From: Stieleria magnilauensis
Lineage (GTDB): Bacteria; Planctomycetota; Planctomycetia; Pirellulales; Pirellulaceae
Direction of reading: 5' to 3'
Assembly: GCA_007753675.1 (NCBI GenBank)
Contig: CP036432.1
Span: 5,368,394 to 5,432,393 of the forward strand
DNA: 64,000 nucleotides
Below are positions 10,991-62,028 of the stretch, one piece after another. The notes under the pieces were generated by a model that was not told the DNA's origin, searched no databases, and saw nothing but the letters and a program-made list of their open reading frames with translations. The translations under genes were made by a program, and so were the position numbers. Every line of letters starts with the position of its first letter. Within the stretch, counting starts at the first letter, position 1.

Positions 10991-11077
10991 TACGCTGTGA
11001 AACATTTTTTCACCGGCAGGTCACGACCCCTCGGCAATCACCTCGTCAATTGCAGAAAACAGATGCTTCACAGCGTT
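10991..11077. repeat. Palindromic MITE-like element, short copy (family A)
   Basis: The ends are ACGCTGTGAAACATTTTTT and the inverted ACAGATGCTTCACAGCGT, matching the ends of the copies at 4571 and 19060. The CACCTCGTCAA tract before the right end is also shared. The middle is largely deleted, so this is a minimal version of about 86 bp. Confidence 0.65.
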
Positions 11078-11100
11078 CCCTGCCTCCATGCCCAGCACCT

Positions 11101-22057: not shown

Positions 22058-22147
22058 CGACCGCGTCCAGCACCCGTTGACACGCAAACAAGGGCGTCCG
22101 CCGCGACGCCCTCGAACCGTCGGGCACGACTGCCGAACTATGCGCTA

Positions 22148-22517: not shown

Positions 22518-24510
22518 CGGCCTGTCGATTTAGTTCCTGGGGACGGTTGATTCGATTTTGGTTCCGGACGAGGCTTTTATGGTGCTATGCGGGGCATCCA
22601 GAGTCGTTGGTAAGCGTGTTGACGGGATCGTGGCGTTCGCTTGTGGCGGATTTCGTTCGAAATGCCCCCTATCTCCCCTAGTTTGCTGTTCCGAGCGATT
22701 GTGTCGCCGCGGCGGCGCGCAGCTTCGCCAAGTAACTCATGATTTTCTTCAGATTGAATCCGGTCGCCGCCCAGCGCCATTCTTGATTCACACCTGCGAT
22801 ACCTCGAAGCAGGAATCGCCGCATATCAAGCGTGCTCTTGATCACGGCGAAAGGCGTTTCACCGAAATGCTGACGACGAGAGTAAGCCTCTTTGGCTGCA
22901 GGCGTTTCCATTCGCGCACGCTGCCGACGTCGCGCTCCTTCATGCTCATCATGCATCGTCTCGCGACCACGTGGCGGGCCAGGCTTGCGACCACGTCGCT
23001 TGCCCGCTCGCTTGTCCGACGAGGTCGCTTCGCTGGACTCCTGGGACGATGCCTCGCTGCTGCTTGCCTCGTCTTTTGGCTTCACGTTCTTGCGACAACG
23101 CCCAGCCAGCGTGCAGCCCTCGCATTCAAAACAGGTGTAAACCTTTCGCTGCACCGGAGAGCCGTCGCCATGCGTCGTGTTCTCGGTCGTCCGATGTGAA
23201 AGCACTTTGCCTGCCGGGCAGTAATAGCAGTCGTTCGCTTCGTCGTACACAAACGCTGCTTTGTCAAATCGTTTGGTTTGTGGATTAACCGGCAACTGAT
23301 CAATCTGATCGGCGGCAACGGGCTCAGTCAAATCCGAACGCTCGGCAGGGTTGTTCTCGCGATTGGTTTCGGCAAGCGGGCCAATCAGTTCGATCTGTTT
23401 TTCCTCAGCCGCAGTGAGGTTTTTGCCCGTCGTGTAAGCCGAGTCAGCCATGACTCGCTTAATGTCAATTCCAAAGTCGTTGGCCACACAGTCGACGATG
23501 GTGGCAAATTCGTGGTGTTCGACGTTGCCGATCAAGACGTCCGCCGCAACGATCAGGCCGCTCTGCGTTTCGGTCGTCGCCATCGGAGTAAAGTTGGCTG
23601 CGTAACCACCCTCCTTATTGGGAAGAATGCGACTGTCCGTGTCAGTCTTGGGTAACTGGGCGGGGCCCTTCGTCCCATTTTTCCTGCGGACTTCGTCCAT
23701 CGCATTGACCGTCTCCAGATGAGCGGCCAGTTGTGAGCGGCGTGACTTCAAGTTGGCGACGGCGGCGGGGAGGCGGTCCGCCGAAACGTCCTGGCCGATG
23801 AGATCTTCGTCGCATGCGTCGTTGACTTCGAAGGTTTCCAGGGCCTCATCAATTTGCGCGTCAAGTTCTTCGAGTGCTTTGGCTAATCGTTTGGCCGTCC
23901 AAGTCTTGTATTTGTTGGCGTCAGCCAGGATGCGTGTGCCGTCGATGCACAGTTCCGAGAGATTGGCGATCCCCAGGTTGATCGCCAGCTTGACCATTTG
24001 TTTGAAGATGCCTTTGACTGCATCACTATTGTTTCGGCGGAAGTCGCTGATCGTGCTGTGATCGATGCGGCGACCGCTGCTAAGCCAGATAAAATCGATC
24101 GAATGCTTGAGTTCGTATTCAATGTTCCGGCTGGATCGGATTCGCCGAATCATGGCAAACAGCAGGATCTTTGCCATTACGCTGGGATGGATCGGCGGCT
24201 GACCGAATCCGCCGTTGTAGGCCGCCTCCCAATCAGTCCAGTCCATCTGATCGAGAATCTCGTCGACCAAGCGAACGGGATGATCCTGAGGGATGAGTTC
24301 CTCCAGGGCGGTGGGAATGAGGACCAGTTGCCCGCGTGGTGTAGGAGCTTCCTGCCAATAGCTGGTCTTGGGTTGTCTCTGGCTCACTGGGCAAGCCTCC
24401 CTGCGTGAGAAGTGAATCGCGACGACGATCCGCCAAGAATAGCAAACATCGTGACGATGCCTACTAAGCCACCTCCCCTCGTTTTGTGGATACACTAAAC
24501 CGACAGGCCG
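22518..24510 (-). mobile_element. IS1182-family insertion sequence
   Basis: The element is 1993 bp, with inverted ends CGGCCTGTCGRTTTAGT (left R=A, right R=G). It is flanked by CTAG at 22514-22517 and 24511-24514, a 4-bp target duplication within the palindromic repeat. One transposase gene fills the element. Confidence 0.9.
22678..24387 (-). CDS. IS1182-family transposase
   Basis: The product is 569 residues from a GTG at 24387, which has GGGAGG 7-8 bases upstream; an in-frame ATG at 24495 lies inside the terminal repeat and is less likely. The N-terminal part (PTALEELIPQDHPVRLVDEI, FGQPPIHPSVMAKILLF) is the DUF772 domain. LCIDGTRILADANKY and RVMADSAYTTGKN hold DDE catalytic acids. A C-terminal cysteine cluster (YYCPAGK, CFECEGCTLAGRC) precedes the HFGETPFAVIKSTLDMRRF block with the final Glu. 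A Ser/Glu-rich then Arg/Lys-rich linker lies between. The gene looks intact. Confidence 0.92.
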   Translation of the reverse strand: MSQRQPKTSYWQEAPTPRGQLVLIPTALEELIPQDHPVRLVDEILDQMDWTDWEAAYNGGFGQPPIHPSVMAKILLFAMIRRIRSSRNIEYELKHSIDFIWLSSGRRIDHSTISDFRRNNSDAVKGIFKQMVKLAINLGIANLSELCIDGTRILADANKYKTWTAKRLAKALEELDAQIDEALETFEVNDACDEDLIGQDVSADRLPAAVANLKSRRSQLAAHLETVNAMDEVRRKNGTKGPAQLPKTDTDSRILPNKEGGYAANFTPMATTETQSGLIVAADVLIGNVEHHEFATIVDCVANDFGIDIKRVMADSAYTTGKNLTAAEEKQIELIGPLAETNRENNPAERSDLTEPVAADQIDQLPVNPQTKRFDKAAFVYDEANDCYYCPAGKVLSHRTTENTTHGDGSPVQRKVYTCFECEGCTLAGRCRKNVKPKDEASSSEASSQESSEATSSDKRAGKRRGRKPGPPRGRETMHDEHEGARRRQRARMETPAAKEAYSRRQHFGETPFAVIKSTLDMRRFLLRGIAGVNQEWRWAATGFNLKKIMSYLAKLRAAAATQSLGTAN

Positions 24511-32534: not shown

Positions 32535-33548
32535 GTGCCACCTCCACCCCATCAACCCGAATTCGACTTCGACCGAGGCGACCGCCTGGCGTTGTTGGAC
32601 GCGTTGCCGCTTGCATCGGGCAGCGTCCACGACGGCCGGGCATCGGTCCGCGTCAGCGGCGCGACGGCCAAGAGCGTCTTGCGCGCGATCGAAGCCCACG
32701 GTCGAACGACGGGCCAATGCTGGGCATCGGCAACCACGATCGGCGCGGAGATCAACCGATCCGAGCGCACGGTCCGCCGCGCGATCGGCTACCTCGAGTC
32801 GATCGAGATGTTGATCATCGACCGCGCCGCCGGCAAATCCCCACGCTGCCGAATCAACTGGGGCGAAATCAGTCTCAAGACAAGTTCCAAGTCTCAAGTT
32901 CCAACTTCCAAGTCAAACAACTCCGACACGCATCACCCCACAAACCAACAACTTGAAACTCGGAACCTGAAACCTGAAACTCCTTCCCCGAACCCCGGAC
33001 TTTCGTCCGCGGACCCCGGACAGTTTGACAACGACCCCGGACACTCTGACAGGAACCCCGGACACAATGTCCGACGAAGCGTAAGGAAGCGTAAAAGAAA
33101 CCTTCCCCCTCCTTCCCCCAAATCGTCCGACGGGCCTCGTCGGAGCGAAGACGTCGCGGCACCCCAGGCGTCGTGGGGGGAGGTGGAGGCGGTTTTGTGT
33201 GGATTGTTGGGAGACTGGACCCGCGCCCTGCGGGACGCCCAGCGAAACGGAGTCGGACCTCGACACGTTCTCGATCTGGTCGGCCATTTTCACTGCCTCG
33301 GCTCCCGTGTGACCGCTGGAGCCCTCTACTGGCGACTGCGCCGCGCCCATCCGTCGCTACCGCCATCAGACGGCTGGCCGGTCGAGACACCCAAAGCCCC
33401 GCCGCCGCGGGCGCAGACAGCCAACGACGTCTTCATGCGGGTCGTCCGTCCCCGCCGGCGAGCCGGCCTAAGCGACGACCAAATCCGTCCCGAGCTCGAG
33501 CGAGCCCTCGTCGCCGCCGGTTTCGCCCCCGACGCGGAGAGAATCTGA
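32535..33548 (+). CDS. Replication-initiator-like protein with HTH_36-type domain and repetitive linker
   Basis: 337 residues from a GTG at 32535. Residues ~50-115 (GQCWASATTIGAEINRSERT, VRRAIGYLESIEMLIIDRAA) match the helix-turn-helix of phage replication initiators (HTH_36/DnaD-like N-domain). A low-complexity linker (~118-190) includes D/N-PG repeats encoded by five CCCCGGACA-like units. The C-terminal domain (~210-337) is helical (VEAVLCGLLGDWTRALRDAQ) and may bind replication partners. Iteron-like repeats just upstream support an initiator role, but this is inference. Its stop overlaps the next start (TGATG). Confidence 0.6.
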   Translation: MPPPPHQPEFDFDRGDRLALLDALPLASGSVHDGRASVRVSGATAKSVLRAIEAHGRTTGQCWASATTIGAEINRSERTVRRAIGYLESIEMLIIDRAAGKSPRCRINWGEISLKTSSKSQVPTSKSNNSDTHHPTNQQLETRNLKPETPSPNPGLSSADPGQFDNDPGHSDRNPGHNVRRSVRKRKRNLPPPSPKSSDGPRRSEDVAAPQASWGEVEAVLCGLLGDWTRALRDAQRNGVGPRHVLDLVGHFHCLGSRVTAGALYWRLRRAHPSLPPSDGWPVETPKAPPPRAQTANDVFMRVVRPRRRAGLSDDQIRPELERALVAAGFAPDAERI

Positions 33549-39805: not shown

Positions 39806-40129
39806 CCAAACGCGGTTACTCGATCACCAACAGTCCACGTCGATACACAATGTACTGTCGCAGGCACAACCTGGCGGAAAAAAACGCTGTCGTTGAAACT
39901 GGAACAAAGCAATCAACCGAAGTCGGCCTCCGGAGCGTGCTAGACGCAAATTTACCGTTGCCGGTTGACGGAAGATGCTCAGGTGCAAGAACATTCCAGT
40001 CCCGTTCCCGTCAGCATCCTCAAAGCGGATACTGATCTTCAGTACGGGGCACGGAGCACGACGAGCACGACTGATTTAGGCCAGATGTGACCATTGGATT
40101 CCCGTTGACTATCACCTCCTACCATCCTC
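39806..40129. other. Intergenic region, nothing clear
   Basis: About 320 bp. A 77-codon frame starting at 39802 overlaps the HIRAN stop (ATGA) but has no family match and unusual composition, so it is not called as a gene. Confidence 0.4.
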
Positions 40130-40957
40130 ATGAGATACCCGCAACCAGATAACGAAGATGAGTTTGAGGACTTTTGCCTGCGTTTCTACCGGAAACATTT
40201 AGATCGTCAAAACCTGAAACGCTACGGGAAACGCGGTGAATCGCAGGATGGTGTGGACATTTTTGATCCGCTGTGTCTCAAACCAGCATCTGCCGTTCAA
40301 TGTAAACATCACGAACCGTACAAAACGCTGCCTCCCCAGAAGATCAAAGATGAAGTTGCCAAAGCAGAAAACTTTCCGCATCCACTCAGCCACTACATAA
40401 TTGCGACTACGGCCAAAAAAACCAAAAACGCACAGAATTGTATTGCAACACTGAACCGCCGAAAAACCAAGAAGTTCACGGTTGAGATTCACTTCTGGGA
40501 AGACATCTGCGAACTACTCTCCCAGTTTCACCGAGTTCAAGCGGAGATCATTGTCTATGGTCAAAGCATCCTTGCCGGTGCCATGGAGCAAATTCCGAGA
40601 GCACATCAAATAGCTCCACTCGTAGAGAAACTTTTGAAGGATCGCAGGCTCGATGCCGCGAAGTACGAGCTTGAAAAACTGGATGCACTCAATTCAACCG
40701 GAAACCTTTCTCTTGAGGACCAGTACCGCTACCTACGATTAAAAGGCAAGGTGGCGGTTGAAAACGGGCAGTACTCTGAAGCGGGCAAGTGTTTTCTTTC
40801 AGCGTTTGACAAGTCTCCAGACTCAGACGAAGCGAAGCAAAATCACGTATACGGTGTGTTCCTGCAAGGCAAGCCGAATGAGGCACACGAACTAGCGAGA
40901 CAATATTTTGACGACGGTCTACGCAATGCCGTAATGGCAAGTCATCTTGTACATACT
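40130..40957 (+). pseudogene. N-terminal part of a split nuclease-TPR-GreAB-C-PIN gene
   Basis: This is the first 276 codons of a larger gene interrupted by IS21 at 40958. Residues ~9-140 form a restriction-endonuclease-like (Mrr/PD-(D/E)xK) domain: GESQDGVDIFDP with Asp43 and AVQCKH with the Gln57-x-Lys59 pair. From ~165 on, helical TPR-like repeats begin (LKDRRLDAAKYELEKLDALN; YRYLRLKGKVAVENGQYSEA). As it stands the frame runs into the IS and stops at 40987. If IS21 and one ATACT copy are removed, it joins the part at 43553 in frame as ...SHLVHTADSLEDVDAY..., giving one 1224-residue protein. Confidence 0.88.
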
Positions 40958-40983
40958 TGTTCGGCGACAATTGGTTCTCCGCT

Positions 40984-43392
40984 TTAGCGACAACTAGAAT
41001 TCCCGATCACGAAGTCGATTTTTGTTTCGAACCCTTTCGTGATTGTCCAGCTGATTTGGTTTGCCTGGCGGTCTCCACGCGATAGCTCGGCACGTTCAAC
41101 TCGATGATCACGCTGTGGTGAACCAATCGGTCGATCGCCGCGGCCGTCGTCATCGCATCTTTGAAAATTTGGTCCCACTTGCTGAACGCCAGGTTGCTCG
41201 TCAACAACACGCTGCCCCGTTCGTAGCGTTCCGCCAACAGCGTGAACAGCACCTCCATCTCCTCTCGATCCTGTTGCACGTAACCCAAGTCGTCGATCAG
41301 TAGACCTTCGTAGCGTGACAGCTTCTTGATGAACTTCTGCAACCGAAGATCCCGTTTGGCGATCAGCAACTGTTGCACCAGCAGGCTGCAAGTCGTCAGC
41401 AACATGCTTCGGCCTTGCTGCACGAGTTGATTCGCAAGTGCACAAAGCGCATGACTTTTCCCGGCACCGGGCCGCCCAAAAATCAGGACGTTCTCCCGAC
41501 GGTCCAAGAACGATCCTTCCCGAAGACTTTCCAGTTGCCGCGTCACCGACAACGGCAAACGATCGAACTTGAATGTCTCCCAGGTCTTGCCCAACGGAAG
41601 TCGGGAATTCGTCATTAGACGCTTGATCCGACTCTCGTGGCGGGCCTGGCATTCCAGGTCCGTCAGTTCCGCCAGGTACTCGACATGGCTCAGGTCCTCC
41701 GCTGCCGCGCGGTCGGCCGACGATTGAAACTGGTCGCGAAACATCGGCAGTCGCAAGCTGCGGAACTGCTCGGTCAGGCGTTCCTCCATCGGGCCGCTGT
41801 CGACTTGCGCCGTCTCTGGCGGGGTCGTCTTGCAGGTCCGCTTTGATGGGGATTGGGTCGCCTTTGTTTGACGCTTGCTGGTGGTAGTAGGGCGGTTCAT
41901 CGTTTGGACTCTCCTTGTCGAACGTGTGAAGTAATACATCAAAGTCGTTCAAGTCGGGCGGATCGACGTCGATGTCGGTCGCCGGCTTGATTTCGATCGC
42001 TTCGCGCACCATCTGCCGAATAAGCTCGACATCAATGGATTGCCCCGATTGGATTTGGTGACGCAGCGCATCCTGCACTGCGTCTTGGCTCTCGCGAGCC
42101 GCGATTTGCAGGAGCTGCAGGTAGTTTCGCACCGCAACCTTCCCGCTGTGAGCATCACACAACATGTCATACGCGATCCGAAAGTGACTCGTCGGGAACA
42201 TGTCTTGCCGATACTTGTAGTTCTCAAATGCCCCCGGTTTGCGGACCAGTGAATCGATCACGTGGCGATAATTAATCGCCGAACCGCCGACACCGATCAG
42301 TCGAGGCATCCGCTGCACTTCAATGCCGTGGTGCGTTACATCGATCCATTCGGCACTGATCCTCACGTCGACCTTGTGCTTGATCAGACGACTGGGGACG
42401 GAGTAGACATTCTTCTTCACCTTGATCGTACTGCTACTGTCAACGGTGAGCCCCCGCTGGATGTCATCGGTATCGAGCCTGTGATCGGGAAGTCGGCTCA
42501 AATGCGACTGTTCGATTTCGAAACGGTCCTTGCGAGCGAGGTTGCTTCGCGTGATCAGAGCTCGCACGAAGTCCATGTAGGCTTTGCGGCTGGCGAAGTC
42601 GCGGCTGCCGCGTAGCAGCAGTGCTTGGTCGATTCGGTTCTTGAGATGACCGTGAGACGATTCGACATCACCGTTCTCGTTGGCGCAACGAACGTTGATC
42701 CGCTCCGGTTCGACTCTGTAATGATCCATCAATGCCGAATACCGCGCCGTGAGTTCCTTGCGTGATGAATGGTTGTTGACCGCGGCGCTGAGGCTGTCGG
42801 TGCGATGACGCTCGGGGACGCCACCGAATTCCCAGAACGCATTCTGGATGCCTTCGCTGAGTGCCTCGAATGATTCGGAGAAGCAGAGCGTGACGGACTC
42901 GACGTTGGAGTAGGTCAACACGCAGTGGTACAGCATGTGCTCAAAAGACACTCCCGCAATCGTGACATGAAGTTCGTTCATGACGGTGAAGTCACTCGCG
43001 GCAAGGCGAGCAGGGTGATGCTCTTGTGGAAACATGACCGGTTTTCCGGGGCCATGCATGCTGCGCCACTTCCTCACACGCCGTTCGAAAGTTCTGCGAG
43101 TCGAGTCCGGATAGAGGCCGGGATAGCAATCTTGCAGCCACTGGAAAAGGGTCTTCGCTTGGAGTCGAGGTTCGGCCTCGAGTTTGCGTTGCACCTCGTC
43201 CCAGACTCCGGCGAACGGGTCGATTCGAGTTCGGTACGTCCGCGGCTTCTTGCACTCCGAAGGGAGCCGGTCGTCGTCTCGATAATGCCTTGCTGTTTTC
43301 TCATCCATTTCAGTCATCCTTGACGAGGCGGCCAGCGACTTGCCTGATGCTAGCAACCGCCGCAGTTCTTTAACTTGTCCGTCCGTGACCAT
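40984..43392 (-). CDS. istA: IS21 transposase IstA (frame stays open through istB)
   Basis: The N-terminal part is typical IstA: helix-turn-helix segments at ~1-60 (VKELRRLLASGKSLAASSRM), a DDE-type integrase core with LAASDFTVMNELHVTIAG (Asp), YSNVESVTLCFSESFE, HRTDSLSAAVNNHSS and ENGDVESSHGHLKNRI (Glu), and a C-terminal domain near KKNVYSVPSRLIKHKVDVRI. Usual IstA length is ~500-550; here the frame has no stop until 40984, giving 802 codons. From about residue 484 on it is read across istB in another frame (Asp/Gly/Arg-rich nonsense). Either the normal stop was lost by a small indel near 41.9 kb, or the extension is fortuitous. Confidence 0.85.
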   Translation of the reverse strand: MVTDGQVKELRRLLASGKSLAASSRMTEMDEKTARHYRDDDRLPSECKKPRTYRTRIDPFAGVWDEVQRKLEAEPRLQAKTLFQWLQDCYPGLYPDSTRRTFERRVRKWRSMHGPGKPVMFPQEHHPARLAASDFTVMNELHVTIAGVSFEHMLYHCVLTYSNVESVTLCFSESFEALSEGIQNAFWEFGGVPERHRTDSLSAAVNNHSSRKELTARYSALMDHYRVEPERINVRCANENGDVESSHGHLKNRIDQALLLRGSRDFASRKAYMDFVRALITRSNLARKDRFEIEQSHLSRLPDHRLDTDDIQRGLTVDSSSTIKVKKNVYSVPSRLIKHKVDVRISAEWIDVTHHGIEVQRMPRLIGVGGSAINYRHVIDSLVRKPGAFENYKYRQDMFPTSHFRIAYDMLCDAHSGKVAVRNYLQLLQIAARESQDAVQDALRHQIQSGQSIDVELIRQMVREAIEIKPATDIDVDPPDLNDFDVLLHTFDKESPNDEPPYYHQQASNKGDPIPIKADLQDDPARDGASRQRPDGGTPDRAVPQLATADVSRPVSIVGRPRGSGGPEPCRVPGGTDGPGMPGPPRESDQASNDEFPTSVGQDLGDIQVRSFAVVGDAATGKSSGRIVLGPSGERPDFWAARCREKSCALCTCESTRAARPKHVADDLQPAGATVADRQTGSSVAEVHQEAVTLRRSTDRRLGLRATGSRGDGGAVHAVGGTLRTGQRVVDEQPGVQQVGPNFQRCDDDGRGDRPIGSPQRDHRVERAELSRGDRQANQISWTITKGFETKIDFVIGNSSCR
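41007..41900 (-). CDS. istB: IS21 helper ATPase IstB
   Basis: 297 residues from ATG 41900 (MNRPTTTSKRQTKATQSPSK); an ATG at 41942 would extend it. IstB signatures are complete: IFGRPGAGKSHALCALANQL (Walker A), LLIDDLGYVQQDREEMEVLF (Walker B and IstB-specific motif) and GSVLLTSNLAFSKWDQIFKD. IstB is the AAA+ regulator that selects target DNA and remodels the IstA transpososome. The gene lies within the distal open frame of istA. Confidence 0.93.
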   Translation of the reverse strand: MNRPTTTSKRQTKATQSPSKRTCKTTPPETAQVDSGPMEERLTEQFRSLRLPMFRDQFQSSADRAAAEDLSHVEYLAELTDLECQARHESRIKRLMTNSRLPLGKTWETFKFDRLPLSVTRQLESLREGSFLDRRENVLIFGRPGAGKSHALCALANQLVQQGRSMLLTTCSLLVQQLLIAKRDLRLQKFIKKLSRYEGLLIDDLGYVQQDREEMEVLFTLLAERYERGSVLLTSNLAFSKWDQIFKDAMTTAAAIDRLVHHSVIIELNVPSYRVETARQTKSAGQSRKGSKQKSTS

Positions 43393-43552
43393 CGCAATCT
43401 CCGTGGAAACAAGGAGTTACGATGATGACCCGAATCCCAAAATCCGGGAATTCTAATTGTCGCTGGCCGAAAACAAGCCAACATGAGATCGCCTCAACCC
43501 GGGAAAGCTAATTGTCGGTAACCGGGAAAACCAATTGTCGCTAGACAATACT

Positions 43553-46399
43553 GCAGATTCATTGGAAGACGTCGACGCCTACCTTGCTGAAATTGAAACA
43601 CTGGCTAAATCGGATGACAATTTATGTGTTGCACTTGCCTACAAATTTTCAGCGGGCAAACAATACGAGAAAGCGCGCGAGTTCACGGACCGTGCGTTGG
43701 AGATAGACTCCGAGTCTCCATACGCCTACCTCGCTGATGCCTGCATCGCTCACGAAGAGGCAATTCATGGTGCATGGCAGGCACGTCGCTCGAACCTCGA
43801 ACTAGCGTTAAAACAGTATACAACGGCAATCGACCTTGCTACGGAACGCGACTGTCCGAATTTGCTCCCTGAGTCCTTCGCACACCGAGGGGCAGTGAAT
43901 TTCCTTCTCGATAATCTGGATGCTGCAGCTTCCGACCATCAAAAAGCTGCTGCCTGTGAAACTCAATCATCCGGCTATGTTGCAAGGGCAGCATCGTTCT
44001 TTCTTCATACGAGAATGTACGAGGAAGCATGGAAGCTTCGTGACAAACTGGATCTCGACACTTTGGAAGGTGAGTTTCTTGCGGTTGGCATTGAGTACCA
44101 CAATTCCGATGGCGAGACGAAGCGAGAGTGCATAAAGCAGATGCTTGAGCTCGCAAATCAGGAGTGGGAACGAAGTCTTGAGTGCCGATTCCATGCGATT
44201 CAATGGGCGATCGGGATCCAAGACTACGAACTTGGGAAGACATGCGTTACGGATGAATTTCTGAAGTCACATCCTTTGCAAGCACATACGTTACTGGGTT
44301 GGATTTACCAGGTAACCAACGAAATTGACAAGGCTAAACAAGAGACCTCTTTTGCGTTGGAGCAGAGCACGGAGTCAGTTCATCGCCAAGAGCTAGAGTT
44401 GCTCGCATCGCTCCTGTTCGAGTTGGAGCAGTTCCCGGAAGCAGCGATGATCTTCGAGCAGGTTGTGACGCCAGGAGTCTTTGATGACTCAATGAAGCAG
44501 TACCTGACTTGTGCTCAGCATCTGGAGCGACATGATTGGCTTTTGCGGATTTGTGGGGAGCTTCGTGAATCCGAAGCACAAGATGACAAAGTGCGAAAGC
44601 TTGAGTTGCAGGTGCTATCCCAGTATCTACCGCAAGATGCTTTTGAGTTAGCCGGTAGGCATATTAAAACGGCCGATGACCCTCGCTTCTTTGTCGCGTT
44701 TCGGAACCTCTTGGCAGTTCGGCTCGACCGTTTAGAACAGCTTGATCTTGACCCCGACAATCTTCCAAAACCCTCCGAAATCGAACCAATCGAGGCAGCG
44801 ATTGTCACGATGCCATACATCGCTGGGGACAAGTTTGATCTCGCACTCGAATTCTTGTACGAACAACTCCGTCTGAATTTTGACAGCGAACATGCTCACG
44901 CGCAATACATCTTCTTCGTGCTCCAGCATGGTCAATACACAGGACTGGGGGTTGCCCCGGCTCGCATAGCAAAAGATACAGCCGTGCTCCTGAAAAAGGC
45001 AGGCAAGTCCGACCAGTGGATTACTTTTGAAAACGACCGGCCCAAGGCGAGCAGAGGTGAATTTGCTTCCGATAGCCCAATTGGTAAGACCTTGCTGGGC
45101 CGCGCTGTCGGTGATCACATCGAACTCCCTGGGTGTTTTCAAGAAGAAACTGCCGAAGTAGCCGAATTGCAGACAAAGCAGTTGCGGGCGTTTCAGGATT
45201 CAATCGGCAATTTCCGCAAGAGATTCCCCGACACGTCTTTGTTGCAGGAATTTTCAGGATTCAAAGACGATGGTCAGCTCAATTTTGAGCCACTCGTAAG
45301 CAATTTAGAGAAACGTCGTGATCACATCGACCACTGTATTCGAGCATACCGCGACGAGAGCTTAACGATCCACTTCCTGGCAGCTCAACTTGGTTTCAAC
45401 TTACCGCAAGCCTTACAGACTTTGGCTGGTCATCCCGATGGGTGCGTCAAGTGTTCGCGGACTACTCCACACGAGTTTCACCAACTTTCCGAGAAGGGAT
45501 TACAGCATTCCGCAATTGTGTTTGAGCTCACGGCGATCGCGACATGTTGGCATGCTGATGTGTGGGAAGACATGCCAATCGTTGATCGAATGATTGTTGC
45601 TCAGTCAACAGTCGAAGAGGTGGATCAATGGATAGATCGCGCAAAGGGAGATAAGGCGTCGAGCTACATGAATCTCAGTGAGGATGGCAAGCTTGTCATG
45701 ACCGAGATTTCTGATGAAGAAAAACAATCACGAGTCGATGGTCTGCAAAAGATGCGCGATTGGATTGCTTCAAATTGCCATGTTCAGTCCTCTAGTTCTA
45801 GCGCGGCAATCGACCCAGGACGACGCAAGCTGTACCGTGTAGCAATTGGCTTTCATGGCTTGGACTCAATTTGCATCGCTAGCGATCTAGGAATTCCCAT
45901 TTGGACCGACGACGCCGTGCTGGGGTTGATTGGCAAAGCCGACTTTGGTGTCGATTCGGTATGGACTCAACTCGTACTTAGTCAACAAGTGTTCGCTGGG
46001 AACTGCGATCAACAAACCTTCGATCGGCACACAGCAAAACTCGCATCGTGGGACTACACCCAACTCATCTGGCACGCTTCCACAGTTGTTGCAGCGGCAA
46101 AAGAATCTAAGTGGGATCCAAATCGCTGGCCATTAAAGCAGTGTTTGTCTTTGATCACCAACACAAATCACCCTCCAGTCCAAAGAGCACGTATTGTTGC
46201 CGATGCTCTCAAATTGCTGCGGCGATCAGATTGCCCTGACCTACTACAAAGCCGAGTAATTCAGGCGTTGCTGGATGCTTTGAACGATCCGGCGGGTGCA
46301 AGATATATCCTGCGCCAACTTGATTCTATATTTCGGGTTGATCCCTTTTCTGCCGACGCAATAGAAACTGAGATTCGCTATTGGCTAAGGCTGCGATAA
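43553..46399 (+). pseudogene. C-terminal part of the split nuclease-TPR-GreAB-C-PIN gene
   Basis: This continues the 40130 gene after the IS21 insertion. It first carries many TPR-like helical repeats (~residues 1-480 of this part). At nt ~45,050-45,130 GEFASDSPIGKTLLGRAVGD matches the C-terminal domain of GreA/GreB transcript-cleavage factors (SPLGxALLGxxxGD). A long helical stretch follows. At nt ~45,820-46,110 a PIN-like nuclease domain contains IGFHGLDSICIASDLGIPIW, TDDAVLGLIGKADFGVDSVW, with Asp residues where PIN active sites lie. A local start at nt 43535, inside the IS end, could let part of it be translated, but without the N-terminal nuclease. Confidence 0.85.
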
Positions 46400-46441
46400 C
46401 ATGAAACTCCGCATGAAAACGGACGAGGATAAGACTCTAGT

Positions 46442-48287
46442 CCTCAATCAAGCGAACGCTAGCGTGGATTTTGCGTGACGCTTTCGGATTTTTGAGGCGC
46501 AGCAGCACGCTTGGGAGCACTGCTCCTTATTGGAAATTCGCATGGTATCGTGCTCATAAATTCGCTTCTCTCGGGTTAGGCGTTAGCGGCGGTACCGAAG
46601 CATCCGGACTTCGGCTTCGTTGGTTTCGACGTGTCACGTTCGAAGCGGCATCGCAATATGGTCACTGAGTGTGAACAAGTTTTCGACGCCGAGACGGTAT
46701 GTCAAAATCCGCAGCTTCAGTTGACGCGATGAGCGGATGACTTGGGCCGGAATCTGGATCAACGAAGTCAAGAACGTCGAGAACTCCATTTTGATCACAC
46801 GATCACGAAGGCGTTTTCGCGTCTTTCTCTGCCCGGGATTCCCTTTGACGCGGACCATCATTCCACTCCAAAGCTTCAGCGTCCAGGCAAGAGAAGCAAT
46901 CAACATGTACGCCCAGTTGCTTTCCAGCGAATCCAGCGGCGCGGTCAATGCGTGACTCGCCTTGAGCTGGCTAATCGTGTTTTCCTGATCACAGCGATTG
47001 TTGCCGTCTCCGATCAGTTCACGCGACTGTTTTTCTTCCTTTGGTTCGTTGCTGATGTAGAAGAAGTACTTTTCGGTGCTGAACAAGAATTGCTGCCCAC
47101 TCGTGACGTCGATGTCTTTGCGAACGGCAACCATCCGGTAGGGACGCTTGCAATTGCCAGGCTGATACGGGAACTCGGCATAGCTTTCAGCACGCAGCTT
47201 CTTGTTCTCGTAGCCGTTTTCTACGACGATTTCCTCTTTGTAGTTGGGTCGTTTTGCACGCGGATTCTCAGAAGTCTTTTTCTGCCGCCGAAGCGGTTTC
47301 CATGCTGATTCGTCGAGGGAGTCGGCAATTGCGGTCAGTGTTTTGTTGGCGTCATAGCCAAACACGAAACGGACATCCTGCGCGTCCCATCGATCGAGAT
47401 GTTGGGTTGACGAAAAGTCCGTGTCGCCACGCAACAGGATCTTTCGAAACCCAGCATTGCGACATAGTTCGATCGCCCTGTCAAAGTAGAACGATGAGCC
47501 TTCACCGCTCGGGCGATTGCCGCTGCGGTTGGCCAGGTACAGTAACTCGTTGGTTTCCGCGAGCGTAACGACCAGTGGATGGTAGCCCCATTGTCCTTTG
47601 TAGTTGATTCCGATGCCCTCTTTCTTTTCACCGCAAGTCTCGACCATCGTGCCATCGGCTTCAATGGTGGCCTGCTCGAAGAACGCATCGGATTGTTGTT
47701 TCCAAACCTTCTTGCGTGCCACGTTGATTCCCTGCATCAATAGCAGTAGCTTGAAGCCATCAAAACGACGGCAAAAGTCACCAGCAGTTGTCGGATCGGG
47801 AATCCGTTCAGCGCCCAGTGCGTCCAGATACGCCTCGTCGGTGCGGCGATGCTCCAAATGTTCGAGGCAGGTCCCACCGGCCAATAGATTCAGGGCAATG
47901 TTGAGCACGTGATCGGCTTCGTCGTACGGCGCGTGAAGCTTGAACACCGGTGCGGACTGGTTGATGTGCTTTCGCAATCCGAGTTGCTCGACAAGCTGCA
48001 TGACCATGCCGATACCGCCACAGGAAACCGCCTCAACTTTCTCGGCCAGTTCGTACTTTGCCCGCAAGGGGCGAATCATGGGCGTATGTGTCTTACCCTT
48101 CTTCTTGTCGATACGTTGTAGAAGAACTCGCTTGCGGCGCAGCAACCGACGGCGTAAGTTGTCGTTCACTCGAAATCCTCCGTTGAGTGAGTGCGTTGAA
48201 GTTGTCGTTATCTCCAATACACCCGCAAAACGCCGAGGGTTTCGAGTTTTTTCAATTTTTCACCATCAAGCGTTCGCTTGATTGAGG
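46442..48287 (-). mobile_element. IS1380-family insertion sequence
   Basis: 1846 bp with inverted ends CCTCAATCAAGCGAACGCT. It is flanked by TCTAGT at 46436-46441 and 48288-48293, a 6-bp target duplication. It lies between the split gene and the phage-like genes. Confidence 0.9.
46634..48217 (-). CDS. IS1380-family transposase
   Basis: 527 residues. Family features are ALNLLAGGTCLEHLEHRRTD, PDPTTAGDFCRRF, QATIEADGTMVETCGEKKEG (catalytic Asp), KILLRGDTDFSSTQHLDRWD (second Asp) and DGNNRCDQENTISQLKASHA (Glu). The length is typical of the family and the gene looks intact. The assigned start (ATG 48217) is the first in frame inside the element. Confidence 0.93.
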   Translation of the reverse strand: MEITTTSTHSLNGGFRVNDNLRRRLLRRKRVLLQRIDKKKGKTHTPMIRPLRAKYELAEKVEAVSCGGIGMVMQLVEQLGLRKHINQSAPVFKLHAPYDEADHVLNIALNLLAGGTCLEHLEHRRTDEAYLDALGAERIPDPTTAGDFCRRFDGFKLLLLMQGINVARKKVWKQQSDAFFEQATIEADGTMVETCGEKKEGIGINYKGQWGYHPLVVTLAETNELLYLANRSGNRPSGEGSSFYFDRAIELCRNAGFRKILLRGDTDFSSTQHLDRWDAQDVRFVFGYDANKTLTAIADSLDESAWKPLRRQKKTSENPRAKRPNYKEEIVVENGYENKKLRAESYAEFPYQPGNCKRPYRMVAVRKDIDVTSGQQFLFSTEKYFFYISNEPKEEKQSRELIGDGNNRCDQENTISQLKASHALTAPLDSLESNWAYMLIASLAWTLKLWSGMMVRVKGNPGQRKTRKRLRDRVIKMEFSTFLTSLIQIPAQVIRSSRQLKLRILTYRLGVENLFTLSDHIAMPLRT

Positions 48288-48564
48288 TCTAGTAGCACTC
48301 CGCGCATTGACAATCGCCTACTCGGAGCGGGTGGGCAAAGTAGCGGATACGCTCCGGTGGCCGACACCGGTGCACTACTAGGTTTCCGTGCTTTTCTGGA
48401 ATTTGATCCGAACGACTGCTGTTCAACAGATGTAATTGCGCGGCCGTTATTTCCAACAAAATCCCTCTCCGCTTGCTGACGCGGAGGGGGCGGGGTGGGG
48501 TTTGTAGGATTCGGGAGATGTGGACTTTGGTAAGCCTCTCTCTTTGAATCTTCAGGCCAATCTT

Positions 48565-49206
48565 ATGCGTCGGGCTCTCTGCGGTGTCCTGCTTGTCGTT
48601 GTTGTTCTCTCTGCCGTCGGGTTTTCCGATGGGCCGATCCGGCGGCTGCTGTTTCGTAACGCGTCTGTTCCTCGGCAGGTGGAACGGAACGTCTGTACCG
48701 GACCGAATTGCTCAAGCGATTCGGTTGCGGAATCCGCGGAGGTGTCGCCGTGGGGTGTGGGTGAGTCGGTGCCGGCGGGCGCGGTGGTGATTGGCCCGTC
48801 ATCGCCGCCGGCGATTTCGCGGACACAGACGGCGAGGTTTGCAACACCAGCGGGTTCAATGCCGTTTGATGCGGCGGAGAACTTGATTGAGACAGAGGCG
48901 TCGGATGGGTTTCGGCGGGCGGTGATCAACGCGTCTCGTGAGGCCAGACGGAGCGGGATGATCACGGTGCGTGACGCCGCGCTGCTTCGCGTCGCCTTGA
49001 TCTCGCCCTCGTTCCGGCAAGCCGCCGAAGACCTTGCGGTGACGCAGATGGCCTTCTCCGGGGATCCCGCGGTGGATGATCTGCCGCGAAAGACGAGCGG
49101 GGAGATCGATCGCACTGCGATCGACTGGGAAGGCTTTGGGGCGTTCATGAAGGTGTTTATCCCATTGCTGATCGAATTGTTGATCGCCGTTGGTGTCGGG
49201 GCCTGA
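48565..49206 (+). CDS. Hypothetical protein with N- and C-terminal membrane segments
   Basis: 213 residues from ATG 48565 (MRRALCGVLLVVVVLSAVGF, a signal or TM segment). The middle is Ser/Pro/Val-rich, with a helical part (FRRAVINASREARRSGMITV RDAALL). The C-terminus has a second TM helix (FIPLLIELLIAVGVGA). It begins the late phage-like operon and ends 2 bp before the protease gene. Possible roles are lysis, envelope or virion accessory; none is proven. Confidence 0.6.
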   Translation: MRRALCGVLLVVVVLSAVGFSDGPIRRLLFRNASVPRQVERNVCTGPNCSSDSVAESAEVSPWGVGESVPAGAVVIGPSSPPAISRTQTARFATPAGSMPFDAAENLIETEASDGFRRAVINASREARRSGMITVRDAALLRVALISPSFRQAAEDLAVTQMAFSGDPAVDDLPRKTSGEIDRTAIDWEGFGAFMKVFIPLLIELLIAVGVGA

Positions 49207-53636: not shown

Positions 53637-54167
53637 ATGTCAGACCACGATCCAACCCACGTCCTTGCGGAGACGATTTCGGATGCTGCGAAGGCGATCG
53701 GTGTTCATGAACGGACGCTCAAGAGTTGGCTGGCCGAGGGCGCACCGGCGAAGACCGACGCCGGCTACGACATCGAAGCGATCAAGACATGGAGAAAACT
53801 GAACCGCAAGTCATCGGAACTTGAACTCGCGGATCCCGACGAATTCAAGTTTCGCATGGCGATGGCGAAGCTGAAGGAACAAGAGGGCAAGGCCGACAAG
53901 GTCAGCTCCGAAGCGGTCATCACGGAATTCAAACGGCAGTTGCTTTCCGAAGGTTTGGTGCACAAATCTGCCGTAAACAACTATTTGGCGAGGGTGTTGT
54001 CGACGTGTCGAAATCAGATCCAAAAAATCCCCGCTCAATTGGCCGCCGGCTATGCCCCTGAGATTCAACGGGAACTGGAACGTGACTGTGCTCAACGCAT
54101 TGATATTGTCCTGCGTGCTCTGCGCACCCAGCTCGCCGATCTTCGCGAGATCGAACATGACGATTGA
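53637..54167 (+). CDS. Terminase small-subunit-like DNA-binding protein
   Basis: 176 residues. SDAAKAIGVHERTLKSWLAE is an N-terminal helix-turn-helix of the Nu1/excisionase class. A helical middle (EFKFRMAMAKLKEQEGKADK) and a C-terminal oligomerisation-like helix follow. It overlaps the start of the large terminase gene by 11 bp, as expected of a TerS-TerL pair. It would recognise pac/cos DNA. Confidence 0.75.
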   Translation: MSDHDPTHVLAETISDAAKAIGVHERTLKSWLAEGAPAKTDAGYDIEAIKTWRKLNRKSSELELADPDEFKFRMAMAKLKEQEGKADKVSSEAVITEFKRQLLSEGLVHKSAVNNYLARVLSTCRNQIQKIPAQLAAGYAPEIQRELERDCAQRIDIVLRALRTQLADLREIEHDD

Positions 54168-56151
54168 AGTGGAACCGTTTGTGCCCGACGACCGGACACT
54201 CGATTGCATCCTTCCCGTCGAGGCGATCAACACGTGGGAGTGGATGAAGGAGAACAGCTACACCAAGAAGGGCATCCCGTTCAACTACTTTGACTATCCC
54301 TGGGTGAAAGGGATCGCGGAGGCCTGGGACAATCCCAACGTCAAACGGATCTTCTTCATGGCCGGCAGCCGGCTGGGGAAGACCGAAGACGGGTTGTCGT
54401 TCATGCACGCGGCACAAGACCACAATCCTGACGTCGGGATGATCATCGGCCCGGACCAGAAGATCGTCGAAGAAACGATCGGGGACCGGTTTTGGCCGAT
54501 GCTGGAGAAGTCGCCAAAAACCCGTGGGTTGTGCCCGCACGTGGCTCGGCGTGCCAAACAGAAGGTCAAAACGTCAACCTTCACGATCTACGGGGCGTGG
54601 TCGGGATCCGCGTCGACCCTCGGCGACAAGGACCCGCGCTACATCGCGATGTTCGAAGTCGACAAGTACACCAAGGACAAGTCAGAAGAGGCGGATCCGT
54701 TCCTGTTGGCGATGGCGCGTGGCGAAGAGATCCCGGACCGAAAATTGTACGCCGAATCGACGCCGACGATCGAGGGCCAATCGCGGATCGGCAAGCACGT
54801 TGCGATGGCGACCAATCGTCGCTTTCACGTCCCCTGTCCGCACTGCGGCCATCACCAGGAATTGGTCTGGAATGAGGGCACGGACCGCTCGGCCGGCGGG
54901 TTGTGGTGGGACCGCGACGAGAACGGGGATTCCAACCCGAACATCGCCGCGAGAACGGCTGTGTACGTCTGCGAAGAATGCGGCGAAGACATCCGCGAGG
55001 AGCAGCGCCGCGAAATGATTCGCAAGGGCGTCTGGTGCGCCGAAGGCCAGTACGTCGATGCATCAGGTCAGTTGATCGGAACGCCGACCAACGACGGGCC
55101 CGACGAGTCGTTTCAGCTGTCCCGGCTGTACGGCCCGACGTTTTCGTTTTCCGACAACGCTCGGGCGTACGTCGAATCGAGGGGCGATTCGGAGGCCGAG
55201 CGGTCGTTCGAGAACAACTCGCGGGGAATGCCCTGGGTTCCGCTGGTGGTTCAGATGAAGTCCGAAGAGCTGGCCCAGCGGCTGTGTGTCGGCAACTGGG
55301 ACGTGGGAACGGTACCGAAGCCGGTGGTTTTCGTCACGACGGCGGTCGACGTCCAGCTGGACCATTTTGTCGTGGGCACCTTTGGCTGGGACCGGGACAA
55401 GATCGGGTATCTGATTCAACACGGAACGGTGCCGAGCTGGAGCGACGTCGCGACCTGGCTGCAGACGCCGTGGCCACACGAAGACGGCCATCCGATCCAC
55501 AGCCTGATGAACCTGATCGACTCCAAGGACGGGAACCGTCAAGAAGAAGTGTTTTCGTTCTGCATGTCGGTGAACCAGCCGCGCAGTCCTTGGGTTTGGC
55601 CGTTGGAGGGAGCCCGATACGGCAACATGGGGATCAAGATGTTCGGCAAGCGGGAGCTTGAGAACCGTTTCGGCGGAAGCAATTCAAAGAACCCCAATGA
55701 AATCTCCGGGCTGCAGTGCATCCAGGTCAATACGATGGTGACGCAAAACTGGTTGGACAACGCGATGGTCCGCCGGCTGCCGGGCGACCCGATGTCGATC
55801 ATGCTGCCACGTCAGGTGGTCGGTGACCTCGATCTGTTCGATCAGCTTCTCAACGAGCGCTACAACCCACTCGAAGGCAAGCACGTCCGGATCGACGAAT
55901 CAACGATCCCGGTCGACTTCCGCGACGTGTTCCGCTATGCGCGGACCGCGGCCGAAGTGTTCACCAACAGCAAGTGGGAGCGTCAACCCAAAGAGCGCCG
56001 CTTCCCGACCGAGAACCTGGACCAGCGGCTGCAGCGCCAAACCAAGCTCGCGTCATCCCCGAAACAGCAACCCGCCACGAAGCCATCCTCACCCGGTTTC
56101 GTCCGCAAGTCAAACACTCAAGGCCGTTTCATCCGGAGGCGAAGATCATGA
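54157..56151 (+). CDS. Phage terminase large subunit, GpA family
   Basis: 664 residues from ATG 54157; a frame start at 54052 lies inside the previous gene. It has the GpA-type ATPase motif MAGSRLGKTEDGLSF (Walker A) with IIGPDQKIVEETI, a zinc ribbon (CPHCGHHQ... CEECG) typical of GpA, and a nuclease half with VTTAVDVQLDHFVV and the C-terminal RYARTAAEVFTNSKWERQ. It cuts and pumps DNA into the prohead using ATP. The gene is intact. The next gene starts in its stop codon (ATGA). Confidence 0.93.
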   Translation: MTIEVEPFVPDDRTLDCILPVEAINTWEWMKENSYTKKGIPFNYFDYPWVKGIAEAWDNPNVKRIFFMAGSRLGKTEDGLSFMHAAQDHNPDVGMIIGPDQKIVEETIGDRFWPMLEKSPKTRGLCPHVARRAKQKVKTSTFTIYGAWSGSASTLGDKDPRYIAMFEVDKYTKDKSEEADPFLLAMARGEEIPDRKLYAESTPTIEGQSRIGKHVAMATNRRFHVPCPHCGHHQELVWNEGTDRSAGGLWWDRDENGDSNPNIAARTAVYVCEECGEDIREEQRREMIRKGVWCAEGQYVDASGQLIGTPTNDGPDESFQLSRLYGPTFSFSDNARAYVESRGDSEAERSFENNSRGMPWVPLVVQMKSEELAQRLCVGNWDVGTVPKPVVFVTTAVDVQLDHFVVGTFGWDRDKIGYLIQHGTVPSWSDVATWLQTPWPHEDGHPIHSLMNLIDSKDGNRQEEVFSFCMSVNQPRSPWVWPLEGARYGNMGIKMFGKRELENRFGGSNSKNPNEISGLQCIQVNTMVTQNWLDNAMVRRLPGDPMSIMLPRQVVGDLDLFDQLLNERYNPLEGKHVRIDESTIPVDFRDVFRYARTAAEVFTNSKWERQPKERRFPTENLDQRLQRQTKLASSPKQQPATKPSSPGFVRKSNTQGRFIRRRRS

Positions 56152-59745: not shown

Positions 59746-59991
59746 ATGACAGACCACCTCTTCCTCCTCGAGCTGCAACAACTTCGCCGTGACGTCGTTG
59801 CCGCGATGCGGGCGACGTTTTCCGGTGGGAAACGTGGTACGGCGGAGTTTTCGATCCGCAATCGTAGCCATCGGATGGAGTCGCTGGAGGATTGCCGGAA
59901 GTTTCTACAGTGGATCAATGAGGAGATCGGGCGGTTGGAATCGGTCTCCAATAGGGTCCCCACTCGTCACCGGGCTCGATTGACCAAATGA
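59746..59991 (+). CDS. gpW-like head-tail joining protein
   Basis: 81 residues. The pattern LLELQQLRRDVVAAM, a beta hairpin (AEFSIRNRSHRME) and SLEDCRKFLQWINEEIGRLE is that of phage lambda gpW, a small protein that completes the head-tail connector. It sits directly before the portal gene with a 4-bp overlap (ATGA), as W precedes B in lambda-like phages. Confidence 0.78.
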   Translation: MTDHLFLLELQQLRRDVVAAMRATFSGGKRGTAEFSIRNRSHRMESLEDCRKFLQWINEEIGRLESVSNRVPTRHRARLTK

Positions 59992-61709
59992 TCGCTCTGA
60001 ACGGTTCAAAACGACATCGTAGGCCAGGGGACCGGAAGGCGGGTTCGCGGCTTGAGCGGGTTGCTTATGCGATCGACGAGGCGATCTTCACCGTTGCGCC
60101 GACTTGGGGTGAGCGGCGGATTGCTTCTCGGTTGAAACGCCGGCTGCTGGCCGAGCAGGCCACTCGAATGAAGGGGTTCGGGCGGCGGTCGCGTCATGCA
60201 CATCCGTCGGTTCGGTCCGCTCCGCATCGTGACGGACGTTGGTTCAATGATCACAGTGGGATCAATGATCAGTTGGAAGAAAGCCAGCAGGAGATGCAGT
60301 TCCGAGCTCGGGAGCTGTATCAGTCGAATCCTCATGCTCACGGCGCAATCGAGGGGCGTGTTTCGCACGAGATCGGAGTCGGACTCGGCTGTCGGCCGCA
60401 GATCACCGAAAGCAAGATCCTGGACAAGGAACAAGCGGATCTTGCCAATAAGACTCTTAAGAGGATCTGCAAACGCTGGAGCAATCGTGGCGTCGACCGC
60501 GCCCGTCGGCAATCGCTGGATGAAGCGCAGCGGCTGATCTGCCGAACCTACGCGATGTTCGGCGAAGCGTTCGTATTGTTCCGTGACGCTCCGTTCCAAG
60601 GCCCAATCGGATTGACGGTGGAAGTCATCGATCCAATGCGGGTCGAAACGCCCCCGGACTATCGCGACGACGAGAACGTGCGGATGGGGATTCGCTACCA
60701 CGCGAAGACCGATCAGATCGTCGGGTACTACATCCGCAAACAGGTCCAAAACGGTAAACGCTACGACGTCGAGTACGAATTCGTCCGACGTTACAACTCC
60801 GCCGGCCAAGAGCAAGTCGTCCACTTGTTCGAGTCGATGTTTCCTGGACAAAAGCGGGGCATCCCGTGGCTGTGCGCGGCGTTCGCGTTCCTGAAGGATC
60901 TGGACGACTTCCACGAAGCCGAATTGATCGGCAAGCAGATCGAAGCCTGCTTCGGGATCGTGATCAAAACCGGCAAACGCGGCGGCACGCCGGCGGAAAT
61001 CTCTGCGGGGATGGCGTCGGGCGAGTTCGACGAACAGGGCAACCCGTTCGAAGAGATCTTTCCGGGGATGGTCGAACGGATCAACAGTGACGATGACCTG
61101 GTCAAGGTCGATCCCTCGCGGCCTGGATCGACGTTCGCGCCGTTTGTGGAAGCTTCACTGCGGGCGATCGCGGCGGCGTTGAATTATCCGTACGAGCTGC
61201 TGGCCAAGAATTTCTTTCGGACGACGTATTCGAGCGGCCGGCTGGCGATGCTGGACGGTCGAATCGGGTTTCGGATGCGCGCCCAGGCGATGATCCACCA
61301 AGTGCTGAAGCCGCTGTGGCGTCGGATCGTTGACGATGCGTTCTTTTATGGGCACATGGACGACGTGACGGATGTGTTGACTTACACGCGGCATCCGGAA
61401 GAGTTCCACGATCATTCGTGGGGCGGGACGTCGTTTGGTGCCGTGGATCCCGAAAAGGAGGTTTCGGCACACGAGGTCGCGATCAACAGCGATCAGGAAA
61501 CGCTGTCGGAAGTTTATGCCGACAAGGATCAGGATTGGCTGGAGGGGATGCAGCAGCGGGATGTCGAGTTGCGCGAGAAGATCCGGCTGGAGATCGCTCG
61601 GGAGAAGTGGGAGGTTGAGGAGCGGGAACGGGCTGGGTTGCCAATCAAGCAGCGAGATGGGAGTGGGGAGGTGGGAGAGGGGGAGAAGACCGGTGGAGTA
61701 GCTGCGTGA
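59988..61709 (+). CDS. Phage portal protein, lambda family
   Basis: 573 residues. Lambda-type portal features are ARELYQSNPHAHGAIEGRVS, VFRDAPFQGPIGLTVEVIDP, GIPWLCAAFAFLKDLDDFHE and LAKNFFRTTYSSGRLAMLDG. The protein forms the dodecameric ring at the head vertex. The gene is full length, but the genes expected next in lambda-like order (head protease, decoration, major capsid) are not found before the IS110 gene, so the module is cut or rearranged here. Confidence 0.93.
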   Translation: MIALNGSKRHRRPGDRKAGSRLERVAYAIDEAIFTVAPTWGERRIASRLKRRLLAEQATRMKGFGRRSRHAHPSVRSAPHRDGRWFNDHSGINDQLEESQQEMQFRARELYQSNPHAHGAIEGRVSHEIGVGLGCRPQITESKILDKEQADLANKTLKRICKRWSNRGVDRARRQSLDEAQRLICRTYAMFGEAFVLFRDAPFQGPIGLTVEVIDPMRVETPPDYRDDENVRMGIRYHAKTDQIVGYYIRKQVQNGKRYDVEYEFVRRYNSAGQEQVVHLFESMFPGQKRGIPWLCAAFAFLKDLDDFHEAELIGKQIEACFGIVIKTGKRGGTPAEISAGMASGEFDEQGNPFEEIFPGMVERINSDDDLVKVDPSRPGSTFAPFVEASLRAIAAALNYPYELLAKNFFRTTYSSGRLAMLDGRIGFRMRAQAMIHQVLKPLWRRIVDDAFFYGHMDDVTDVLTYTRHPEEFHDHSWGGTSFGAVDPEKEVSAHEVAINSDQETLSEVYADKDQDWLEGMQQRDVELREKIRLEIAREKWEVEERERAGLPIKQRDGSGEVGEGEKTGGVAA

Positions 61710-61887: not shown

Positions 61888-62028
61888 GGCGACTGCCATT
61901 CTATCACAATGCTGGCCCCCTCATCCCCAGCCCTGGTATGCCCCTAGATCGTGAAAAATCTAGACAAAGACCATTCGAGTGCTCAATTGGAAGAACTTTT
62001 CAACACTTCCAATTTGTAGAGAACTCAA

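Follow-up and report, generated by a model that had tools for sequence, protein, structure and literature searches.

A probable defence cassette between inverted 21-bp hairpin sites in a Stieleria magnilauensis prophage, holding an interrupted TPR-GreA/B-C-PIN gene

In a stretch of 64,000 nucleotides from Stieleria magnilauensis (contig CP036432.1, positions 5,368,394 to 5,432,393 of the forward strand; hereafter the window), a gene of 1224 codons is split by an insertion element. We think it likely that this gene is a member of the TPR-GreA/B-C-PIN family with an Mrr-type N-terminal effector, carried as prophage cargo in a slot whose ends are a pair of inverted 21-bp hairpin sites, and that an IS21-like element interrupted it not long ago. 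The whole is probably an exchangeable defence cassette of a new kind, holding a broken member of a published family. Sequence comparison establishes the family membership, the break and the slot, with unrelated cargo between equal flanks, and also that the same cargo in Rhodopirellula sallentina SM41 is inverted relative to its pair of ends. The cassette boundary is apparently new, and it is present in other genera of this planctomycete family as well. We consider evenly balanced the wider proposal that members of the family have an undescribed recombination system, by which complete defence systems would be moved and flipped as cassettes between convergent hairpin sites of 21 bp, both within prophages and in other parts of the genome. 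The TPR-GreA/B-C-PIN gene would be one cargo of such a system and would thereby gain independent contextual support for an anti-phage role of its family.

The interrupted gene and its family

The gene and the elements in and beside it are as follows (window positions; L and G numbers denote loci and genomes).

40130..40957, forward strand: N-terminal half of the split gene, 276 codons, with the Mrr-type nuclease and the first TPRs; matches phrog_8991 (unknown function, 2.2e-18)
43553..46399, forward strand: C-terminal half of the split gene, 948 codons plus stop, with TPRs, GreA/GreB-C, PIN and a C-terminal tail
44945..45241 (approximate, read from the alignment), forward strand: GreA/GreB C-terminal-like domain, with the motif SPIGKTLLG at 45074
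45518..45937, forward strand: PIN domain (PF20698), first acidic position Glu (FELTA, 45521)
40958..43547, reverse strand: IS21-like insertion element, with open reading frames (ORFs) 40984-43392 and 41007-41942 on the reverse strand
40953..40957, no strand: ATACT, left copy of the target duplication, read from the sequence
43548..43552, no strand: ATACT, right copy of the target duplication, read from the sequence
46437..48292, reverse strand: second insertion element, inside the cassette just 3' of the split gene, with a DDE_Tnp_1_4 transposase at 46634-48217

The codons of the two halves (276 + 948) sum to 1224, and an uninterrupted orthologue in R. sallentina SM41 (locus L004, 7173-10847) spans both of them. 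The halves match it end to end, without gap or overlap, at 93.8% and 92.5% protein identity, and its insert-free junction reads ...SHLVHT-ADTLEDV.... Together with the coordinates and the ATACT pair, this orthologue bears out the initial annotation of the window, which had proposed a single 1224-codon gene split by a precise insertion. A second, distant intact homologue of 1259 amino acids is found in G019, with 35% identity over the C-terminal half and a like order of domains. The ratios of nonsynonymous to synonymous substitution (dN/dS) of the halves against R. sallentina, 0.14 and 0.21, indicate that the gene is under purifying selection.

The insertion looks recent, because five full-length copies of the element, including the present one, are all displayed at 100% identity in the S. 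magnilauensis genome and both halves of the gene are still open. Since the effector and sensing parts are separated by the insertion, the protein is most likely dead in this genome. We take the element to be of the IS21 type from its two overlapping reverse-strand ORFs, its 49-nt imperfect terminal repeat and the 5-bp duplication. Its transposase frame (40984-43392) is open over 802 codons and runs through the second ORF in another frame, so that the usual stop is apparently missing or the overlap unusually long.

By its domain profiles, the split gene belongs to the TPR-GreA/B-C-PIN family. The PIN domain matches PF20698 of Pfam ('PIN domain associated with the TPR-GreAB-C-PIN system') at E 8.2e-27 and 94.6 bits, against a cut-off of 27.8. 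As a single sequence, the GreA_GreB segment stays below the Pfam cut-off of 26.9 (E 0.0067, 16.8 bits), but a profile built from six homologues finds solved structures of GreA (1grj, E 3.7e-6) and GreB (0.0057) and, weakly, Gfh1. Single Pfam models of TPRs likewise fall below cut-off, and the whole-length profile matches TPR structures. The TPR, GreA/GreB-C and PIN-like domains of the initial annotation are thus recovered, the first two by homologue profiles and the last by PF20698.

The Mrr-like nuclease that had also been proposed occupies approximately residues 1-140. It contains D43, Q57 and K59 within the motifs QDGVD and QCK, and we assume that this D...QxK arrangement is the Mrr-type active-site motif. 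The positions G33, G36, Q39, G41, D43, Q57, C58 and K59 are invariant in all four aligned relatives with a restriction endonuclease (REase)-type N-terminus, which upholds the assignment. The Pfam profile itself is sub-threshold: Mrr_cat_2 scores the N-terminal half at 0.0034 and 17.7 bits, below its cut-off of 22, and an unrelated influenza NS1 model, also below cut-off, scores it slightly better (0.0014). A profile search of solved structures gave no convincing relative of the REase-type N-terminus, and a structure predicted from a two-sequence alignment had a mean pLDDT of 38 and was not used. Four of the six aligned homologues have the REase-type N-terminus and two a different one, a variability that the published system predicts; the N-termini of L084 and L081 were read by eye as 'SIR2' and 'phosphorylase'. 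Of the four acidic positions of PIN, the window retains the three that follow the first, as judged by eye, and one of these varies across the family.

The family is patchily distributed. The C-terminal half finds matches in 3 of 40 genomes, its own included and one only at 2.8e-4, and PF20698 in 4 of 294 genomes of the phylum, its own included and three above cut-off. A search of 50,697 phage records gave no match to the C-terminal half, four single-protein queries of viral contigs confirmed no copy, and plasmids gave four weak matches.

The suggestion that this is an undescribed system had to be given up. TPR-GreA/B-C-PIN proteins with swappable N-terminal effectors, REases among them, were described together with a near-identical mechanism by Kaur, Iyer, Burroughs and Aravind in 2021 (PMC8195603), and Pfam has named PF20698 for the system; excerpts of a 2022 paper also name TPR-GreA/B-PIN systems. 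In the proposal of Kaur et al., GreA/B-C engages the coiled coil of polymerase beta-prime, the emerging transcript is cleaved by PIN, and the effector at the N-terminus comes into play when this fails; RNA polymerase binding and anti-invader action are predictions there as well. The earlier idea of a nuclease that senses disturbed transcription fits this published prediction and is therefore not new. The cargo would protect the host or the prophage against other phages. Following that model, GreA/B-C would attach to RNA polymerase at its secondary channel and PIN would cleave the RNA extruded there; only in the last instance would the Mrr nuclease be set free by the TPR scaffold. The gene shares with the published system a constant core in equal order, an effector from the published range and the form of a single stand-alone gene. 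It differs in being interrupted, in lying in a prophage slot between inverted sites, and in the Glu at the first acidic position of its PIN domain.

Two other views of the gene have been considered. That the protein is a host transcription quality-control factor rather than a defence protein seems to us quite unlikely: GreA/B-C binds RNA polymerase in known factors (PMC8195603), but the distribution given above is patchy and the gene lies in a prophage slot where a relative holds IetAS. We give still less credence to the view that the split gene works on, its halves being translated separately and associating, so that the insertion would have created a two-part system. Such a reading could draw on the openness of both halves and on a TTG-started frame of 954 codons that begins within the end of the IS21-like element. 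It has to contend with the five identical copies of the element, which point to a recent event, with a break that falls in the TPR scaffold, and with the homologues, among the few of which no second genome has the split form.

The prophage slot and its hairpin sites

The slot, its two sites and the surrounding prophage genes are as follows.

39917..39937, forward strand: left cassette-end site, 21-bp hairpin, variant b, CCGAAGTCGGCCTCCGGAGCG; mean of 0.00 matches in 100 shuffles of the window
48350..48370, reverse strand: right cassette-end site, inverted hairpin, variant a, CCGGTGTCGGCCACCGGAGCG; at the inner edge of this site, homology sets in again with L016, L046 and L132
38291..39805, forward strand: HIRAN-domain protein (Pfam), conserved left flank of the slot
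48520..49206, forward strand: conserved 228-amino-acid protein, right flank of the slot, no Pfam match
32535..33548, forward strand: O-like replication initiation protein (5.6e-11)
54052..56151, forward strand: terminase large subunit gpA (2.5e-51)
59988..61709, forward strand: lambda-family portal protein (3.8e-71)

The O-like replication protein, the gpA terminase and the lambda-type portal identify the region as a prophage. Five copies of the flanks could be compared: the window, L016 (a second copy in the same genome), L046 (G001), L049 (G003) and L132 (G006). Homology between the window and L016 runs to 39936 and resumes at 48350, which are the inner edges of the two sites. Compared pairwise, L046, L049 and L132 are 87-94% identical in both flanks, the homology ending within the sites on both sides in all three cases. 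L132 is the same prophage as that of the window, 87-90% identical in blocks between 36865 and 56356; the right junction of the window lies at the site in comparison with both L046 and L132.

The cargo between these flanks is different each time. L132 carries IetA (9.3e-70) and IetS (6.1e-63), antiparallel to the prophage and between sites of three mismatches; L046 a large STAND/HEAT-like protein (weak Pfam matches) and a small protein; L049 a kinase-WD40 protein and a sigma factor; and L016 two transposases only. By this comparison of related prophages with different cargo at one position, the slot is a prophage defence hotspot of known kind, though in L016 and L049 the cargo is limited to the genes just named. 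The initial annotation had spoken of an integrated element with other conflict genes, and a slot with interchangeable cargo, IetAS in one relative, is a stronger result than that.

R. sallentina provides the case in which cargo and flanks come apart. The block that it has in common with the window (39922-46435 plus 48292-48372) lies in unrelated flanks, and the two ends of the block carry one short hairpin, inverted with respect to each other. The left site of the window's cassette equals the right site of the R. sallentina cassette (21/21), and its right site equals the left one there. The cargo next to the sites, by contrast, matches at 85% in the unswapped arrangement, left to left and right to right, and outside the sites the similarity is no greater than between random 20-mers. 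Among the sites listed for the genus and family genomes, variant b is confined to these two loci; variant a is common. The simplest reading would be that the cargo was inverted at the inner edges of the sites, and parallel change of the sites instead is a conceivable one. An empty slot was sought for the R. sallentina cassette; part of its left flank is present in G461 (98%), extending to a site and into it, but G461 was rejected as an empty site because the right flank was not found there. Other hairpin repeats occur near the sites, such as those like GCTCCGGTTTCATCGACCGGAGC beside both R. sallentina ends. In G461 (L147, 6827-8229), the gene to the left of the R. sallentina cassette is bounded by related hairpins approximately 1.4 kb apart, possibly a smaller unit.

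The sites were searched with the pattern CCGRWGTCGGCCWCCGGAGCG at two mismatches, using the reversed pattern as control. The S. magnilauensis genome (10.8 Mb) holds six sites against none for the control, and 14 genomes of the genus hold 68 against 2. In 149 genomes of the family, 51 had a match and 128 sites were found, against 16 for the control. Among neighbouring sites of the family within 11 kb of each other, 27 of 40 pairs are convergent, 12 point in the same direction and one is divergent (binomial p 1.9e-8 against 25%; the limit was chosen after the list had been seen and the genomes are related, so that this value is only a guide). The ends within a cassette are no more alike than those of different cassettes (2.38 versus 2.44 mismatches, p 0.40), which leaves the idea of co-evolving ends unsupported. 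No publication on such sites was found by titles and abstract openings in the open-licence part of PubMed Central, which is weak evidence of their novelty.

Further slots may exist. The cargo of L062 differs from that of L064, but their flanks are alike (82% and 77%), up to points 56-418 bp outside the sites; with a gpA terminase on one side of L064, this may be a second prophage slot (L062 1-14501, L064 1-7501). One flank is common to L015 and L051 (87%), whose cargo differs; a protein of 1600 residues, helicase-like by eye, lies there 290-400 bp outside the cassettes (L015 10341-15164, L051 5153-9961; 87% DNA identity). Elsewhere in the window, a transposase unit at 61910-63946 is split into two ORFs (62029-62676 and 62686-63594). 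The same unit occurs twice in L016, inverted, open over 521 codons and as the sole large cargo, with more than 99% DNA identity. Self-comparison of the window further revealed a tandem array of an approximately 51-bp unit at 22146-22518.

Cargo of the convergent site pairs

Searches with PADLOC covered 41 main ORFs of 27 cassettes, namely 25 of the 27 convergent pairs together with L078 and L132, whose sites need three mismatches. L004 (the cargo of the window), L052 (0.8 kb), L016 (transposases), a 15-kb interval of contig 9 of G454 and the loci without a convergent pair were left out of the count. A match at E 1e-4 or better was obtained in 19 of the 27 cassettes, the clearest being the following.

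L047: Upx, 3.7e-162
L074: ThsB, 3.6e-117
L050: Pycsar cyclase, 8.3e-103, and TIR effector, 1.1e-110
L070: Avs2, 2.9e-95
L048: E1-E2, 2.9e-90, with JAB and patatin
L132: IetA and IetS
L076: NsnA, 9.6e-35
L072 and L073: ThsA-like, read as SIR2 type, 1.6e-19 and 1.6e-12
L015: Ppl, 1.5e-16
L078: PifA/QatA type, 1.9e-13
L075: Avs4, 4.7e-11

The defence richness of the cassettes is an indication and not a measured enrichment. By Pfam, HD-CE is present in L045 and L071, where an HD-CE protein and a protein of 720 residues stand side by side (L045 1207-4615, L071 1939-5626) in different genera and without a PADLOC match, a candidate for an undescribed defence pair. Related insertion elements were observed in three cassettes (window 46437-48292, L015 6188-8043, L045 4605-6459); the L015 and L045 copies are 90% alike and the transposases of the window and L015 nearly identical, and cassettes may be favoured landing places for them.

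Proposed movement of the cassettes and its meaning

We propose that cassettes are flipped and swapped by a putative recombinase, which would work where the sites meet the cargo, at their inner edge. Its action on inverted sites would explain the sharp ends, both orientations, the inversion and the exchange of cargo. Tyrosine recombinases lie beside or inside four site-bearing loci (L054, L066, L067 and L080). In L054 (10845-10875), a hairpin site lies no more than 5 bp from the end of such a gene (10870-11895, reverse strand), as if it stood next to the attachment region of that recombinase.

Integrons offer a parallel, in that short hairpin sites bound mobile cassettes; their attC sites stand in one orientation, whereas the pair described here is inverted and 27 of 40 neighbours are convergent. 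REP elements are short palindromes, often in alternating orientation, that occur with RAYT transposases. The present sites resemble them as short palindromes of alternating orientation, but are few per genome, have several kb between the arms and are linked to no Y1 transposase locus. A RAYT/REP origin was rejected, as the copy number is low and no site with at most four mismatches lies within 1.5 kb of any of the six Y1 transposase loci in the S. magnilauensis genome. A study of prophage defence hotspots (PMC9122126) describes a like arrangement of interchangeable anti-phage systems at a fixed position between replication and packaging genes. Unlike those hotspots, the present cargo is bounded by short inverted sites of a kind that further loci and further genera also have, and in one case the cargo is inverted between them; a term search of the main text of that paper did not find 'inverted repeat'.

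Rather doubtful, in our view, is the alternative that the sites are REP-like intergenic hairpins, placed at the junctions since hairpins collect between genes, and that the conserved flanks of the prophage allow cargo to be swapped through homologous recombination, a route suggested for the P2 and P4 hotspots. Similarity of the flanks extends over at least 1 kb on each side, other hairpin repeats lie near the sites, and Rousset et al. (2022; PMC9122126) speculate on homologous exchange at phage hotspots. Flank recombination cannot explain R. sallentina, which has the cargo without the flanks. Nor does the rarity of the site, with six copies in 10.8 Mb and 68 versus 2 for the control in the genus, agree with REPs, which according to excerpts of PMC2817692 usually exceed 100 copies per genome. 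We regard as unlikely a transposon origin, in which the cassettes would be non-autonomous elements with terminal inverted repeats, served by a transposase from elsewhere. Inverted ends, cargo of mostly 3-8 kb and the lack of any transposase or recombinase seen in common among the cassettes would suit such elements, but there is no target duplication (the direct junction match is 0 or 1 bp in all 26 cassettes compared) and one slot recurs in five copies of the flanks. Conservation is moreover confined to approximately 22 bp, though the search pattern imposes most of that.

A number of observations weigh against the readings preferred here. The inversion is documented in one pair of genomes. The left-flank homology of L046 and L132 with the window stops 90-115 bp before the site, and in L131 (G013) the left flank reaches to within 11 bp of the site position and is followed only by a degenerate GTCGGCCACCGG, with no site within four mismatches, on a contig that ends before the right flank. 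Some single sites of the family scan will be chance matches, because the reversed control gave 16 against 128. Tyrosine recombinases were not seen in the remaining site-bearing loci, and none is tied to the sites. The cargo survey is uneven as well: four of the 19 cassettes with a match have weak ones (L051, L061, L064, L066), L049 and L068 match only as kinase-WD40 proteins, and L077 is mainly a kinase with a weak restriction-type match. Eight of the 27 have no match (window, L045, L046, L062, L063, L065, L067, L071); L063, with a BlaR1-type peptidase (Pfam), and, by eye, L062 look unrelated to defence, and some pairs enclose ordinary genes (L049, L063, L068). Two of ten flanking ORFs also matched PADLOC, one E1-like and one weak, in a control that is small and unequal (one ORF per locus versus up to three per cassette, the control ORF of L073 starting across the site). 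L051 and L066 share cargo across genera (82.6%), with the shared part ending 50-226 bp inside the sites or mid-cassette. As for the gene itself, the first acidic residue of PIN is Asp in five homologues, whereas both the window and R. sallentina have Glu there, making PIN activity uncertain. No experimental test of the protein family against phage was found in the open-licence PubMed Central literature, as far as its text was available. This includes DefensePredictor (PMC13092281), which mentions the validated PIN-domain systems DS-3 and DS-5 and, in the parts available, assigns neither to the TPR-GreA/B-C-PIN family; the accessible part of PMC7159879 contains nothing on the family.

If the cassette reading is true, defence units in a planctomycete family are delimited by a DNA motif of 21 bp. 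This would open a simple route to new systems where defence has been little studied, with the unannotated cargo (HD-CE with TPR, STAND-HEAT and others) as a list of candidates, and would raise the question of which enzyme swaps and flips the cassettes. It would also lend a new line of support to the published TPR-GreA/B-C-PIN prediction, for which R. sallentina supplies an intact gene.

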